Notes under the pieces: model-generated
Database searches by the model: none
What the model was told of the DNA's origin: nothing
The model's input: the letters and a program-made list of their open reading frames with translations, nothing else
IMG/VR virus record: IMGVR_UViG_3300025131_000334
Coordinates: 1-27,289 of that record
Origin: a virus
Length of the DNA: 27,289 nt
Direction: 5' to 3' (one strand)
Shown: one piece after another, positions 1 to 27,154 of the stretch
How positions within the stretch are numbered: the stretch's first letter is position 1
Layout: each line of letters opens with the position of its first letter
Translations under genes and position numbers: made by a program

Positions 1-1263
1 CAATTAGAAAGGCTTTATAAGCCGTGTCGCCCCGGCGCAGTCACCACGAGCGCACAAAACCGGCCCTTATCATCGGCGGAATATCTCACCATGTATGGAG
101 AAGCGATCGGGGAAGTGATCGCGGAAATGGGCCGAGAAAAATCTGTGTATCGTCACGGGAACTTAATCGAGGGGTGTTGTGTACCCGCCAAAGTGACGCC
201 CGCGCACAATCCACACGTCGCAGAGTGGTTGCGGTTGTTAGCCGGTGGGCACCATGAAAAGCTCTTGGACTGGCTCGCCACGGTCACACAGTTGTCAGAT
301 CCTACGGCGGCGATCTACCTCCAAGGGCCGCCCTCGATCGGAAAAGGTCTACTCGCAAACGGGGTTGCTAGCCTTTGGCCCGGGGGGGCTACGTCCTTCG
401 GGGATGCTACCGGGAAATTCAACGGCGCCTTGGCCCGTAATGCTCTCGTTTACGTTGATGAAATCTCGCAGACGTTCGACGGCGGCGATGGCTTTTCTGG
501 GAGCTTTCGATCGCTGATCTCCGAAAGTTCTCGCCAACTACGGCGCAAAAACCTACCTAGCGGCACGCTCCGAGGTTGCCCCCGGTTGATTATAGCCGCC
601 AACAATTCAGACGCTCTAAGGCTACGCGAAAGCCTCACAAAAGCCGATCTTGAAGCTATCGCGCTTCGGATCCTCCATATTCAAGCGGATGATCAAGCGG
701 CGCGCTACCTAGAAAAGTTGGGAGGGCGGGCCTTCACGAAATTTTGGGTGACCACAGCCGACGGCGCCCCCGGCGTGATCGCGGCCCATATCGCCCACCT
801 AGCGGCAACGCGGGAAGTGCAACCCGGATCGAGGTTTCTAGTCGAGGGTGTGATCAGTGATTGGCACCGGGGGCTTATGGGCTGTTCAGGCGTGCAAGGC
901 GATGTTTTGGCGGCGCTGGCAAAGTACAGAAAAGATCTACACCGGCGTGGGGTTCTCGGGATCGAGTTCGACGATCGGGGGTGTTGGGTCAACGGGCCGG
1001 CGCTCCGTGGCCAATGGGAACTGTTGCTAAGACGCCCACCCCCGGACGAAAACACCCTAGCCCGTGCCCTTCGCGTCTTAAGCAACGAAACGACGCACCG
1101 GCGGCGGTTCGGTGAAAAGGGCATTCAAAAACGGTGCTACTTGATCGAGCTTGGCGACATCGATCGCCGGGACGCGGCCTTACAAATCAGCGATTTAACC
1201 CCCGACACATGGACCGAAGATGACGAAGAATGTACCGACGAACTTGGAGCTATCCCCTTCTAG
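1..1263 (+). CDS. Phage primase/SF3-type helicase, 3' part (5' end outside window)
   Basis: This is the C-terminal part of a phage replicative ATPase of the primase-helicase type, which would unwind DNA at the replication fork. The frame is open from base 1 with no stop, so the ATG at 91 is probably internal and the gene begins upstream. Counting from that ATG, a Walker A motif GPPSIGKG lies at residues 79-86, a Walker B strand ALVYVDEI at 118-125, and a sensor-like strand LIIAANNSDALR near 166-177. This spacing and the NNSDALR sensor fit superfamily 3 helicases. The primase domain, if present, would be outside the window. The 3' end overlaps the next gene by 44 bases, so the two are likely co-transcribed. 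The ATPase call is firm. The family name is inferred from motifs and from the replication genes downstream. Confidence 0.75.
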   Translation, partial: QLERLYKPCRPGAVTTSAQNRPLSSAEYLTMYGEAIGEVIAEMGREKSVYRHGNLIEGCCVPAKVTPAHNPHVAEWLRLLAGGHHEKLLDWLATVTQLSDPTAAIYLQGPPSIGKGLLANGVASLWPGGATSFGDATGKFNGALARNALVYVDEISQTFDGGDGFSGSFRSLISESSRQLRRKNLPSGTLRGCPRLIIAANNSDALRLRESLTKADLEAIALRILHIQADDQAARYLEKLGGRAFTKFWVTTADGAPGVIAAHIAHLAATREVQPGSRFLVEGVISDWHRGLMGCSGVQGDVLAALAKYRKDLHRRGVLGIEFDDRGCWVNGPALRGQWELLLRRPPPDENTLARALRVLSNETTHRRRFGEKGIQKRCYLIELGDIDRRDAALQISDLTPDTWTEDDEECTDELGAIPF

Positions 1264-3124
1264 GGCGATCCGCGTTTCAAACTCCCAGATAAGCAAGTAT
1301 ATGCGGTGCCCGAAAAAATGGTGGTATACCTACGGCCCTCTCCAACTGAAAGAGCCCACCAGCAAAAAGGCCGCTTTGGGGACGGCGGTGCACGCTGTTT
1401 TGGAGGCTTACCTTCGAGACGGGACGCCGATCCCAGACACCCCAGCGGGCCGGATCGCGTCGGTTGGGTTGGACAAACTAAGACCCGCCGAAGATCTAGA
1501 AATTGAGCGATCGATCACCCTCCCCCTGAACGACGCCGCGAACATGCTTTGTCGGATCGATATGTTGGGAAAAAACGAGCCTTATGTGGGGGATCACAAA
1601 ACCACAAGTGACCTCAAATGGGTTAAAACTAGGGCACAAGTGGCGCGGGATATTCAGCTTATGACCTACGCTTACGCGGGATACCACGAAACAAAACCCG
1701 ACACCGTAACCGGGGAACTTATCTATTACGTGCGCGAAGGCCAAAAAGTTTCTATGGCCGTGGGCGCTGAATTTTCTTGGGAAGACATCGAGGAAAATTG
1801 GCGTTTAATGGGGGAAATTGCCCGCGAAATGCTACCCCGCAAAACGGACCCAACAGGCGAAACTTGCGCGGGCAACTCTAGCGCCTGCGGTGATTACGGC
1901 GGATGTTTTTTTCAGGATCGATGCCCGGTTTCCCCCCGAAACGCATCAAAGATAAAAAAAGAGTTTGCAGAAAGTTGCAGACCTGCTAATAATGGAACAG
2001 AAATTAACCCCGAAGAGGAGCAACACATGTCTGGTTTTTTAGATGAGATGATGACACGGCCGAACAAGCGGCCCCCCGGCGACAACGGATCGAGCTTTGG
2101 AGGCTTCGCGGCCCCCTCGGTTCTACCTCCCGAGCACCCAGCCCCCACACGTCAAGCTGCGGCCACCGCGCCAATTTTTGACGACGTGAAAGCAGCGCCG
2201 GTGCCAGCACCGGTTGAAACGGTAGCGCAACGAACCCCCACAAGCTGTGGGAAAAAAGAACAAGAGGAGATCGGAGCATTGTTTCGCGAACATCGAATGA
2301 GCCACCCGGCGAATTGGGAGATCACCGAAGAGCAAGCCGAGTCAGTAGTGGAAGATTTGATCAAAAAGCACACCGGGCGAAATATGACCAAATCGCGCTT
2401 TGTAAACGTGATCAAATTCGCGGGCTATGTCTTTGAGGAGGGGCTTTTGGTGGACACCCGCCTAGCTCCCACCGAAGGCCCTTTTAACCCCGGCTACACC
2501 GCCGATCCGCAAGGCCACGACGCCGAAGATCTCACCGACGACGCCCAACAGTGGGAAGCTTTGGCCGAAAACCAACCCACGGCGGCCCAAGCTGCCGATC
2601 GTGAAGACTACGAGCGCCGAAGCGGGAAAACCTCCCCGAAGCCCGAAAACGCGCCTATGGTATTCGAGACGGAAAAAGGCCGCGCTATTCACATGATCGA
2701 TCTGATCTCCGAATGTACCCGCCACGCGGACGCAATATCGAAAGGTTGGGCTTCGAGCGCACACGCAGAGGTCTGGGAGATCGGCAAGATCTTCGACACC
2801 CGAGGCACACCCGACGCCGCCCTAGACGCGCCCTGTGTGTTGTTTGTTGACGTAGCACACACGGGCGCGGATGCGGAGACCGTCGACGGTTGGCTTGATC
2901 CGATCAAACTCCAAGCAAAAGACGCCCACCCTCAAAAAGACTATCCTTCTTACCTCGCGGCGGATCTGGACTATGGCGCCGGGGCTAAGCTCCTAGCCCA
3001 CGTCCTAAAATCCCACACAGAACCCCCGGCGGGCCTGTGGATGATGAGGAGCACTCATAAAGAAGCCGAGGTAGTTTTAGCCACCTTCGAGCGCTTGGGC
3101 GCTTGTATCGTCTACGGTAACTGA
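1220..3124 (+). CDS. Cas4/RecB-like PD-(D/E)XK nuclease fused to an unknown C-terminal region
   Basis: The first ~240 residues are a PD-(D/E)XK nuclease of the RecB/AddB/Cas4 type. Visible motifs are the N-terminal SQISKYMRCPKKW segment, H58 in GTAVHAVLE, D114 in CRIDML, D125 and K127 in GDHKT, and Q146 with Y150. C30 plus C223, C229 and C235 could hold an iron-sulfur cluster, as in AddB and Cas4. The likely role is processing DNA ends during replication or recombination. Residues 270-634 are unrelated: a proline-rich linker followed by two mixed helical regions (about 340-410 and 490-634) that I do not recognise. The join (residues 240-269) reads like translated intergenic DNA and contains an A7 run, promoter-like boxes and a ribosome binding site. 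The ATG at 1220 was chosen because the nuclease motif begins at about residue 20. A homopolymer sequencing error could have created the fusion. Confidence 0.75.
   Translation: MTKNVPTNLELSPSRAIRVSNSQISKYMRCPKKWWYTYGPLQLKEPTSKKAALGTAVHAVLEAYLRDGTPIPDTPAGRIASVGLDKLRPAEDLEIERSITLPLNDAANMLCRIDMLGKNEPYVGDHKTTSDLKWVKTRAQVARDIQLMTYAYAGYHETKPDTVTGELIYYVREGQKVSMAVGAEFSWEDIEENWRLMGEIAREMLPRKTDPTGETCAGNSSACGDYGGCFFQDRCPVSPRNASKIKKEFAESCRPANNGTEINPEEEQHMSGFLDEMMTRPNKRPPGDNGSSFGGFAAPSVLPPEHPAPTRQAAATAPIFDDVKAAPVPAPVETVAQRTPTSCGKKEQEEIGALFREHRMSHPANWEITEEQAESVVEDLIKKHTGRNMTKSRFVNVIKFAGYVFEEGLLVDTRLAPTEGPFNPGYTADPQGHDAEDLTDDAQQWEALAENQPTAAQAADREDYERRSGKTSPKPENAPMVFETEKGRAIHMIDLISECTRHADAISKGWASSAHAEVWEIGKIFDTRGTPDAALDAPCVLFVDVAHTGADAETVDGWLDPIKLQAKDAHPQKDYPSYLAADLDYGAGAKLLAHVLKSHTEPPAGLWMMRSTHKEAEVVLATFERLGACIVYGN
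1954..1960 (+). other. A_AAA_AAA slippery run at the nuclease/C-terminal junction
   Basis: Seven A bases sit in frame as A_AAA_AAA, a possible -1 slippage heptamer. A -1 shift here would add about nine codons and stop at the tandem TAA TAA at 1987-1992, giving a nuclease-only protein of roughly 256 residues. One extra A in the real genome would have the same effect. Whether slippage happens is inference. Confidence 0.4.
1965..1993 (+). promoter_or_regulatory. Candidate intragenic promoter upstream of an internal start
   Basis: TTGCAG at 1965-1970 and TAATAAT at 1987-1993 are 16-17 bases apart, and a TG one base upstream of the -10 (1984-1985) gives an extended -10. The local DNA is much more AT-rich than its surroundings. 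It lies about 35 bases before an in-frame ATG that has its own ribosome binding site, so it could drive the C-terminal region alone. Confidence 0.4.
2027..3124 (+). CDS. Nested in-frame product: C-terminal region of the nuclease fusion, unknown function
   Basis: An in-frame ATG at codon 270 of the nuclease fusion is preceded by GAGGAG (2015-2020) with a 6-base spacer, a better ribosome binding site than that of the fusion itself. Starting here gives a 365-residue protein beginning MSGFLDEMMTRP. It has a Pro/Ala-rich stretch (residues about 20-75), a helical region containing EEQAESVVEDLIKKHTGRN, an acidic linker, and a C-terminal region ending ATFERLGACIVYGN. I do not recognise the family. 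Its place among replication genes suggests a DNA-metabolism accessory role, which is inference. Either it is made as well as the fusion, or it is the true gene and the fusion is artificial. Confidence 0.5.
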   Translation: MSGFLDEMMTRPNKRPPGDNGSSFGGFAAPSVLPPEHPAPTRQAAATAPIFDDVKAAPVPAPVETVAQRTPTSCGKKEQEEIGALFREHRMSHPANWEITEEQAESVVEDLIKKHTGRNMTKSRFVNVIKFAGYVFEEGLLVDTRLAPTEGPFNPGYTADPQGHDAEDLTDDAQQWEALAENQPTAAQAADREDYERRSGKTSPKPENAPMVFETEKGRAIHMIDLISECTRHADAISKGWASSAHAEVWEIGKIFDTRGTPDAALDAPCVLFVDVAHTGADAETVDGWLDPIKLQAKDAHPQKDYPSYLAADLDYGAGAKLLAHVLKSHTEPPAGLWMMRSTHKEAEVVLATFERLGACIVYGN

Positions 3125-8558: not shown

Positions 8559-8977
8559 GCATTGACCCAGGCGTCAACCGGAGCGCCCTAGCCGCTTGGG
8601 ATAAGGATCGGCGGCTTTTGTACGCTGATAACCTCGAAACGGGGGCGGTGGGAGCGATCCTCGATGAACTACCCGCCGGGGTTGACGTGTGGGTAGAAGT
8701 GCCAATCAAGTACCCGACGAAGAGGAAAAAACACTATCAGATCGGGCGGCTTCTGGCGGTTGCAAACGCCTTCAAGGCCGTGGCGGGGGGTGTTGGGGTG
8801 TCCCCGAGCGCGTGGAAAGCACAGATCCCAAAAAGCGTACACAAAAGCCGGATCCTCGGTACGCTCGACGCGGGGGAGTTTCGGGCGATTGTGTCACCCG
8901 CGGACCACAATACGATCGATGCCATAGGGATCGGCCTGTGGGCGCTTGGAAGAAGCGGCCGGGGGGGTGGAAAATGA
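8528..8977 (+). CDS. ruvC: RuvC-like Holliday junction resolvase
   Basis: The preferred start is GTG 8528, with GGAGA seven bases upstream (8516-8520). An upstream in-frame extension to 8387 lies wholly within the methyltransferase gene and lacks a good site. The 149-residue product has an RNase H-like fold with FLSIDPGVN (D13), VWVEVP (E57) and a C-terminal ADHNTIDAIGIGLWAL (D126, H127, D131), which match the acidic residues of RuvC. It would cut branched replication or recombination intermediates. Its stop overlaps the large terminase start as ATGA, so it is probably coupled to packaging, where branches must be removed. Confidence 0.85.
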   Translation: MESFAAIKFLSIDPGVNRSALAAWDKDRRLLYADNLETGAVGAILDELPAGVDVWVEVPIKYPTKRKKHYQIGRLLAVANAFKAVAGGVGVSPSAWKAQIPKSVHKSRILGTLDAGEFRAIVSPADHNTIDAIGIGLWALGRSGRGGGK

Positions 8978-10341
8978 GCGAAAAAGATCGACTATTCGCC
9001 GAAGCTCTCCAACGTGATCCGCTTCGTTTTGAGCGTTTCCGGTGTGGGGCGTCGGCCCCCCTTTTTCATAGTGATAAGGCGCGTGAGAAGCTCTTACTCG
9101 CAGGAAACCAGTGGGGAAAAACCCGAGCCGGTGCTAGAGAAAGCCTGTGGATCATGACCGGATCCCACCCGTGGCGCGAGGTAGCCAAGCCACCGGTGCG
9201 GGGGCGCGTGGTTACCTATTCGTGGGCCCAAAGTGTCGAAGTACAACGACGAATAAACGAGATCCTACCTAGCTTTTTAGTCGAGGGGTACGATTTTAAC
9301 GATCAAAGAGGCTTCGTAGGTAGCCGGATCAAGTTAAAAAACGGATCACTTTTGGAGGTTATGACAGCTTCGCAGGGGACAATAGCCCACGGTGCAGCTA
9401 CCCTCGATTTTGTGTGGGTGGACGAACCTCCGGAAAGACGGCTTTATTCCGAGCTTTTGGCGCGTTTGCTTGTAAAAAAGGGAACACTTTTTCTAACCAT
9501 GACCCCGATCGGGCGCCCTGTGGATTGGCTGATCGAAGAGGTTGAAGCAGGGAAACTAAGCGCCCACCGTTTTGATCTAACGCCGGAAAATTGCCCGCAC
9601 CTAGACGCCGAACAAATAGCCGCCATAGCCCAAAAATACCTACCTCATGAACGGCCCCAACGGATGCACGGCCATTGGCACGGCGAAAGTAGTGACCGGC
9701 TCATAGAATCCTTTTCAGAGCGTGCGATCAATGAAGACATGCCACCGGGTAGCGTGGGGATCGGGCTAGGAATTGACCACGGCGAAGGGGTGGGCCGCGA
9801 GGCGGCGATCCTCCTTTGTTATGAACTCGACGCAGATTTCCCGCGAATTTGGGTGATCGACGAATACACCAACAAAAGCCGAACCGATCCCGAGGAAGAC
9901 GCCGCCGGGATCCTTGACATGCTCCGCCGGCATAACATAGCCCCCGGTGAGGTAGATCTCGCCGTGGGGGACATCAACACCGCCGGCAAGGGTGGGGGCG
10001 GAATTAAGGTGAACACGGCCCTAGCCGGGGCCATCCAACGCCAAACAAAAAAACACTATGTCCCGATCACCATCCGATCCGCCAAAAAAGGCCGGGGCTC
10101 GGTTATGTATGGATGCCGACTGCTAAATTATGCGTTTCGCCGGGGGGATATGACGATCCACCCCCGGTGCAAAGCCTTGATCCATTCCTTGCGACATTGG
10201 AAAGGGGAGGAGGATCTAAAACACCATATTGATGCTGTGCGTTATATTACCTCCGCGATCCTATCCCAGAAAAAGGGTTATTATCGTTTAAGGTTTGACG
10301 CACCACCACCCCGCGAGGCTTTACGATATGCCCAACGCTGA
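8974..10341 (+). CDS. terL: Terminase large subunit (packaging ATPase/nuclease)
   Basis: The motor that pumps DNA into the prohead and cuts it. The ATG at 8974 overlaps the resolvase stop (ATGA), giving 455 residues; the frame extends further upstream only inside the resolvase gene. The ATPase domain has Walker A GNQWGKT (44-50), Walker B FVWVDE (D150, E151) and a coupling motif TMTP (175-178). The RNase H-like nuclease domain shows GLGIDHG (D268), VGDINTAG (D333) and HHIDAVRY (D420). No small terminase gene was recognised next to it. The portal gene overlaps its 3' end by 14 bases. Confidence 0.95.
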   Translation: MSEKDRLFAEALQRDPLRFERFRCGASAPLFHSDKAREKLLLAGNQWGKTRAGARESLWIMTGSHPWREVAKPPVRGRVVTYSWAQSVEVQRRINEILPSFLVEGYDFNDQRGFVGSRIKLKNGSLLEVMTASQGTIAHGAATLDFVWVDEPPERRLYSELLARLLVKKGTLFLTMTPIGRPVDWLIEEVEAGKLSAHRFDLTPENCPHLDAEQIAAIAQKYLPHERPQRMHGHWHGESSDRLIESFSERAINEDMPPGSVGIGLGIDHGEGVGREAAILLCYELDADFPRIWVIDEYTNKSRTDPEEDAAGILDMLRRHNIAPGEVDLAVGDINTAGKGGGGIKVNTALAGAIQRQTKKHYVPITIRSAKKGRGSVMYGCRLLNYAFRRGDMTIHPRCKALIHSLRHWKGEEDLKHHIDAVRYITSAILSQKKGYYRLRFDAPPPREALRYAQR

Positions 10342-26398: not shown

Positions 26399-27154
26399 AT
26401 GAAATATCACATTAGTTTCAGCGGCGGCCTAGGGTCGGCGATCACTGCTCTGATTGCCTACGAGAAAGGGTTAGATTTTTCACTTTTGTTTGCGGACACC
26501 TTGATCGAAGATGAGGATCTCTACCGCTTCATCGAAGACGTCGCTCAAGCCGTCCGCGCCCCTATCGTGCGCCTAACCGACGGGAGAAATCCTTGGGAGG
26601 TTTTTAATGCCGTGCGGTATCACGGCAATAGTCGTACAGCTCACTGTAGCCAGAAGCTAAAGACCGATCAGGTTCGAGGGTGGCTCGATGTCCACGCCGC
26701 GCCCAATGATCCTCTTGTCTTGGGCATGGATTGGAGTGAAGAAGATCGGATATTGCGAGCCGGGGAAAACTGGGCGCCGCGTCCCGTCGTCTCACTGCTT
26801 ATGGAATATCAAGTGTACCGGCCACAGTGGGCGCCTATGCTTGAAGCCTACCAAATAAAACCGCCCCGGCTTTACGAGCTAGGTTTCCCCCATAACAACT
26901 GCGGCGGGTTTTGTGTGCGTTCAGGTCTCGCGCAAATGCGGCTCTTGAAGCTCAAATTTCCAGAGCGGTATGCTTGGCACGAAGAGCAACAGGAAAAGCT
27001 CCTAGCGGATATTCCCACCACAAAGCCGTTTATCCGCCAAAAAATAAACGGGGAACTTCAATACTTAACTCTCAAAGAGTTAAGAACTATGGACGAAGCA
27101 CAACTTTCTATGTTTGACGCCGGGGCTTGGGGTTGCTCCTGCTTTGTCGATTAA
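26399..27154 (+). CDS. PP-loop ATPase, PAPS-reductase-like, with five cysteines
   Basis: The 251-residue product belongs to the adenine-nucleotide alpha-hydrolase superfamily. The N-terminal SFSGGLGS (6-13) is a PP-loop that binds ATP pyrophosphate, followed by the core strand LLFADTLIEDED. Conserved-looking later blocks are SRTAHCSQKLK (C83), GFPHNNCGGFCVRSG (C168, C172) and WGCSCF (C246, C248). Five Cys in these positions suggest a metal or iron-sulfur site, as in PAPS reductases and thiolation enzymes. Close relatives are often labelled PAPS reductase, but the exact reaction is unknown; nucleotide or nucleic-acid modification is possible. The ribosome binding site is weak, so translation probably follows from the small gene before it. 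Confidence 0.75.
   Translation: MKYHISFSGGLGSAITALIAYEKGLDFSLLFADTLIEDEDLYRFIEDVAQAVRAPIVRLTDGRNPWEVFNAVRYHGNSRTAHCSQKLKTDQVRGWLDVHAAPNDPLVLGMDWSEEDRILRAGENWAPRPVVSLLMEYQVYRPQWAPMLEAYQIKPPRLYELGFPHNNCGGFCVRSGLAQMRLLKLKFPERYAWHEEQQEKLLADIPTTKPFIRQKINGELQYLTLKELRTMDEAQLSMFDAGAWGCSCFVD

Follow-up and report, generated by a model that had tools for sequence, protein, structure and literature searches.

The nuclease gene at positions 1220–3124 of the phage DNA studied here is likely to be one case of a conserved gene within a gene, in which a full-length nuclease-tail protein and a separate tail would both be encoded. The window (the whole stretch of DNA analysed, 27,289 nt of the IMG/VR virus record IMGVR_UViG_3300025131_000334) holds, on its plus strand, a frame of 634 amino acids (1220–3124) that stays open across the junction between the two parts; all features of this gene described below lie on the same strand. 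The exact start of the full-length fusion is uncertain, both putative starts, ATG 1220 and TTG 1244, having weak Shine-Dalgarno (SD) pairing (−3.0 and −1.0 kcal/mol, respectively).

The junction elements that the earlier note had described (a run of seven A, a double stop in the −1 frame, promoter-like boxes, GAGGAG and an in-frame ATG) were each found where it had placed them. The A7 run, in A_AAA_AAA phase, occupies 1954–1960 and was judged incidental, and the TAA TAA of the −1 frame lies at 1987–1992, where frame 0 reads GCT AAT AAT GGA (A-N-N-G). A sigma-70-like hexamer pair spans 1964–1993 (TTGCAG at 1965–1970, then TAATAAT at 1987–1993), and a promoter at this site was rejected, since the scan count was not above chance (three promoter-like pairs in 9 kb versus 4.2 expected from shuffles). 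AAGAGGAG (2013–2020), the SD sequence of the internal start, contains GAGGAG (2015–2020) and pairs with the anti-SD at −8.3 kcal/mol, on a par with the other gene starts of this phage (mostly −6 to −12); the internal in-frame ATG (2027–2029), residue 270 of the fusion, stands 6 nt downstream of it. A separate tail protein of 365 aa (MSGFLDEMMTRP...IVYGN, 2027–3124) is predicted from this ATG, on the basis of the internal-start statistics given below and of the stand-alone tail genes present in three relatives (L047, L052 and L079). Positions 1950–2049 form the most A+T-rich stretch of the gene (37% GC), as expected of a gene junction.

The nuclease half belongs to the RecB/Cas4-like PD-(D/E)XK exonuclease superfamily, as seen in its profile, motifs and fold. 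The PD-(D/E)XK (RecB/Cas4/RecE-like) domain at 1265–1924 scored 60.7 bits against Pfam PF12705 (cut-off 22) and carries the nuclease motifs GxxxH, D (1559), DHK (1592–1600) and QxxxY (1655, 1667), together with four cysteine codons (1307, 1886, 1904 and 1922) arranged as in Fe-S nucleases. The invariant columns of a 19-sequence alignment include G39, H43, D99, D110, K112, Q131 and Y135, as well as C15, C208, C214 and C220. The structure model of the domain, with pLDDT over 90 across most of its length, matched RecE (3h4r), SSO0001 (4ic1), MGME1 and EXO5 in the PDB (Foldseek E values of 6e-6 for RecE and 2e-5 for SSO0001, probability 1.00), and placed the junction methionine outside the confidently folded nuclease core. 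Against the CRISPR Cas4 equivalog TIGR00372 the nuclease reached 27.6 bits, under the required 65 bits, and no Rpn or transposase model was present among its Pfam matches at E up to 1 (PF12705, Cas_Cas4, DUF3799 and DUF2800 only).

We assembled a family of relatives by aligning the DNA polymerase of the window to that of a metagenomic phage, and two further scans enlarged the set; the queries (polymerase, nuclease and Cys-motif) were devoid of the internal methionine. The family consists of 48 distinct, de-duplicated loci with a readable junction, the window counted in, all of them metagenomic or environmental sequences from uncultivated phages. Used as single-protein queries, the fusion, the nuclease or the tail retrieved no relatives from viral_contigs; INPHARED yielded none for the fusion or the tail and weak partial matches for the nuclease alone, a scan of genome_contigs gave no prophage relatives, and an exact-DNA search for a second assembly found no other contig spanning the A7. 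The annotation of MW202816 shows one protein, named 'cas system-associated protein'.

When the relatives were compared for one long gene versus two, as the earlier note had proposed, the nuclease frame was found to continue stop-free into the tail in 45 of the 48 loci, with tails of 105 to 481 residues and with most of these fused members at 25–60% identity. The remaining three (L047, L052 and L079) are split, the nuclease stop being followed by a tail gene that begins 1–21 bases on; the NPP motif described below is present in all three of their tails and the C-terminal domain in that of L079. A clean stop between the two parts, which the earlier note had named as evidence against a fusion, thus does occur in the family, and only in distant members: such members attest to a split form in other parts of the family and are not evidence of a split in the window itself. 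In a tree of the family L047 and L052 grouped together and L079 stood apart, giving two state changes as drawn, with weak deep branches. The nuclease stop of L079 nearly overlaps the tail start (TAAAATG, within L079:1869-2646) and the two frames differ, while L047 and L052 are split within the same frame, so that reading through the stop in these two would restore a fused product.

We defined the junction start as the first ATG 9–40 residues past the last cysteine of the nuclease and chose it blind to SD. An in-frame start 9–39 residues past this cysteine was found in all 45 fused members (ATG in 43, GTG in two), with a chance of 0.33 per gene of meeting an ATG in such a stretch (binomial P = 6e-19). 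In the two GTG members, L045 and L070, the start lies exactly at the usual +12, after ATGAGGTCCCAC and ATGGAGGCTCAA (GAGG and GGAGG), respectively. SD energies, calculated as pairing to the common CCUCC anti-SD core, had a mean of −5.64 kcal/mol at the junction start versus −3.08 kcal/mol at a further 254 in-frame Met codons taken from these genes (P = 9e-10), and with the members grouped into 45%-identity clusters, clustering being the only handling of their relatedness, the junction SD was stronger in 28 of 30 (P = 4e-6). Shuffling of synonymous codons reached the observed SD value in 5 to 19 of 1000 shuffles, which makes this signal modest when taken alone. The SD was weak at the first eligible Met in L061, L040, L037 and L020, and a better one was present a few codons on, at the second Met, in L040 and L020.

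Codon and residue choice around the start pointed in the same direction. AGG or AGA accounted for 22 of the 33 arginine codons just upstream of the start versus 126 of 1063 elsewhere (P = 9e-13), and all of these AGG/AGA codons were placed 3–5 codons ahead of it. Serine, a start-like choice, was the second residue at 22 of 43 junction starts versus 14 of 263 other Met, and position 2 was Ser, Ala, Gly, Asn or Thr in 39 of the 43. The layout is that of the in-frame genes within genes (iTSS) of phages: the internal start is in frame and has an RBS of its own, and the stop codon is shared with the longer gene. Judging from these sequence features, it is highly likely that the fusion is real and has a functional internal start, and both products are probably translated. 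Our search of the literature found no phage exonuclease of the Cas4/RecB-like type described with an internal start.

The tail is proline/alanine-rich and highly variable. It opens with a short helix-like motif, which in many members reads MSxxFLxxLRxRK, and further on [IVL]N[PSC]P was found in the tails of 35 of the 45 fused members (1.2 expected), and AT-hook-like GRP/GRK/RGR stretches in 27 of the 45. An [IV]NPPE motif and an AT-hook-like KRGRGRPRK were observed within disordered-looking, variable Pro/Ala linkers, for example in L018:1640-2212 and L039:2520-3179; [IV]NPPE is possibly a partner-binding motif. The window tail retains the opening motif and the C-terminal domain but is devoid of NPP and AT-hook-like motifs. 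This C-terminal alpha/beta domain (2804–3121, about 100 residues) is common to the 23 members aligned, and its structure is Rossmann/P-loop-like, with a best Z of 4.2 and no usable match; a Foldseek search of the PDB returned no match below E 0.3 for the tail domain, and no family of PHROGs, Pfam or NCBIfam matched the tail.

The neighbours of the nuclease are a primase/helicase-like gene (DUF5906), a helicase, a family A polymerase and a terminase. Its place between the primase/helicase and DNA-polymerase genes makes it probable that the nuclease serves the replication or recombination of phage DNA. The terminase gene (8953–10341) has a 100% identical copy on contig L003 (IMGVR 3300002518_004037) and relatives at 68–76% in L004–L010, and none of these terminase-related contigs (L003–L010) extends to the nuclease junction. 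At the contig end, past the structural genes, 26399–27154 encodes a PAPS-reductase-domain protein (PF01507, E 3.7e-6; PADLOC SspD model, E 2e-5).

Other readings of the junction were weighed against an internal start. The simpler alternative raised by the earlier note, that a miscalled A in the A7 run had misjoined two ordinary genes, so that TAA 1987 would end the nuclease and ATG 2027 would open the following gene, is in keeping with the GC dip and intergenic-looking composition at 1950–2049, with the good SD-ATG at 2027 and with the natural split of three relatives. However, the nearest relatives, L040 and L060 (nucleases 57–61% identical), are fused without any A7, as 42 other members are also fused, and the frame-0 linker ANNGT of the window recurs in L060, again in frame 0 (A-N-N-G-T), while the −1 peptide RVCRKLQTC is like nothing seen; with its nearest relatives fused without an A7 and the linker shared in frame 0, a miscall in the window is very unlikely. 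Programmed −1 slippage on A_AAA_AAA, which would yield a nuclease-only product ending at TAATAA, can draw on a correctly phased heptamer with stops close downstream and on one relative (L080) that has an in-phase A7 and a −1 stop before its internal ATG, as the window does. It is nevertheless highly improbable, given that these two were the only members with an in-phase A7 among the 43 fused members scanned (those with an ATG junction start), that the heptamer is missing from the two nearest relatives, that, of nine A7 runs within genes of the window, six are in this phase (including runs in the terminase and polymerase genes), and that the sequence after the A7 (1964–2050) folded no better than shuffles (z 0.27, for pseudoknot-free folds). 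In L080:313-360 the −1-frame stop immediately precedes the internal ATG (GATAAAATG). As a programmed −1 frameshift cassette the site was rejected, the slippery heptamer being present but conservation and a downstream structure lacking. The earlier proposal of three proteins from one locus thus holds for the full fusion and for the C-terminal part alone, both backed by the 45 fused members, and not for a nuclease made alone by slippage. We also considered that a role within the protein might explain the conservation of the junction Met, where the last helix of the nuclease ends (CNLSPxERxxSIM), with the full-length fusion as the only product. The start does lie at a fixed +11/12 in 29 members, usually inside a conserved peptide, but in the other 16 it is found elsewhere (between +9 and +39), within unrelated linkers and still with the stronger SD (P = 0.001), and the persistence of this SD difference off the usual spacing disfavours a purely structural Met. 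The choice of AGG/AGA codons would moreover be invisible to constraint at the protein level, the Met is mostly followed by one of the five residues named above, and two members replace it by a Val whose codon is GTG and is preceded by a good SD, a modest argument alone, as GTG makes up 40% of Val codons. We therefore regard a purely structural role as quite unlikely.

We propose instead a gene within a gene whose internal start lies at the junction. The long frame as a whole would give an exonuclease of the RecB/Cas4/RecE-like type with a flexible tail attached, while additional initiation by ribosomes at the SD-ATG of 2027 would yield the tail by itself (365 aa). The free tail may then bind full-length copies of the nuclease through tail-tail contacts, and this binding might assemble or adjust an enzyme equipped with additional tails for contact with DNA or partners. 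By analogy with known systems, we tentatively suggest that the free tail is a partner subunit of the nuclease. With the same gene arrangement the tail could instead inhibit the nuclease, much as RpnS inhibits RpnL, and so keep phage or host DNA safe until the enzyme is required. Rpn nucleases are also of the PD-(D/E)XK type, and their highly variable C-terminal part is separately translated, with the product RpnS inhibiting RpnL (PMC10327210); the tail here is highly variable too. Pfam, however, does not detect our nuclease as an Rpn, and the position in the replication module and the free tail gene of the split members suit a partner equally well; an inhibitor appears somewhat unlikely. The partner reading is slightly favoured over it by the persistence of the tail as an independent gene in members whose fusion is broken, together with the DNA-binding-like segments present in many members. 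Whether as an intragenic inhibitor or as a hetero-oligomer subunit in excess, the separately translated tail may set the activity or processivity of its own exonuclease, with members of the family interconverting in the course of evolution between a single gene with an internal start and two genes.

Comparable layouts are found in several known systems. In two-polypeptide phage endolysins, initiation at an internal in-frame site that has its own RBS, with the stop shared, gives a short product that is the C-terminal binding domain, and in some of them full-length and C-terminal products form heteromultimers, for example 1:3 or 1:5 (PMC9430671). The present gene resembles them as one phage gene with an internal in-frame start, an RBS and a common stop; in contrast, its enzyme is a replication/recombination-type nuclease and not a lysin, and its layout is predicted from sequence. 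The likeness to Rpn lies in a PD-(D/E)XK nuclease with a variable C-terminal part that has its own internal start, whereas the Pfam nuclease family differs, Rpn are found in bacterial defence islands and our nuclease in a phage replication module, and the Rpn tail is a three-helix bundle while the tails of this family are disordered in part and often carry the NPP motif and AT-hook-like stretches. With Cas4, RecE, MGME1 and EXO5 the nuclease half shares the fold, the catalytic motifs and the four cysteines (not every named enzyme has all four), although it does not reach the curated Cas4 score; to our knowledge, a tail of this kind with its own internal start is not found in any of these enzymes. 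Cas11, which arises from internal starts within cas8 and cas10d, is alike in that the C-terminal part of a larger DNA-acting protein is made separately in frame, the proteins being unrelated. Likewise, M13 gene X within gene II and phage lambda Nu3 within C each give, separately and in frame, the C-terminal part of a larger DNA-acting or capsid-related protein, again unrelated to our nuclease.

If the conserved hidden start is true, a tail protein has been missed by annotation across the 45 divergent phages found, and an arrangement familiar chiefly from endolysins, Cascade and Rpn would extend to a replication-type enzyme.
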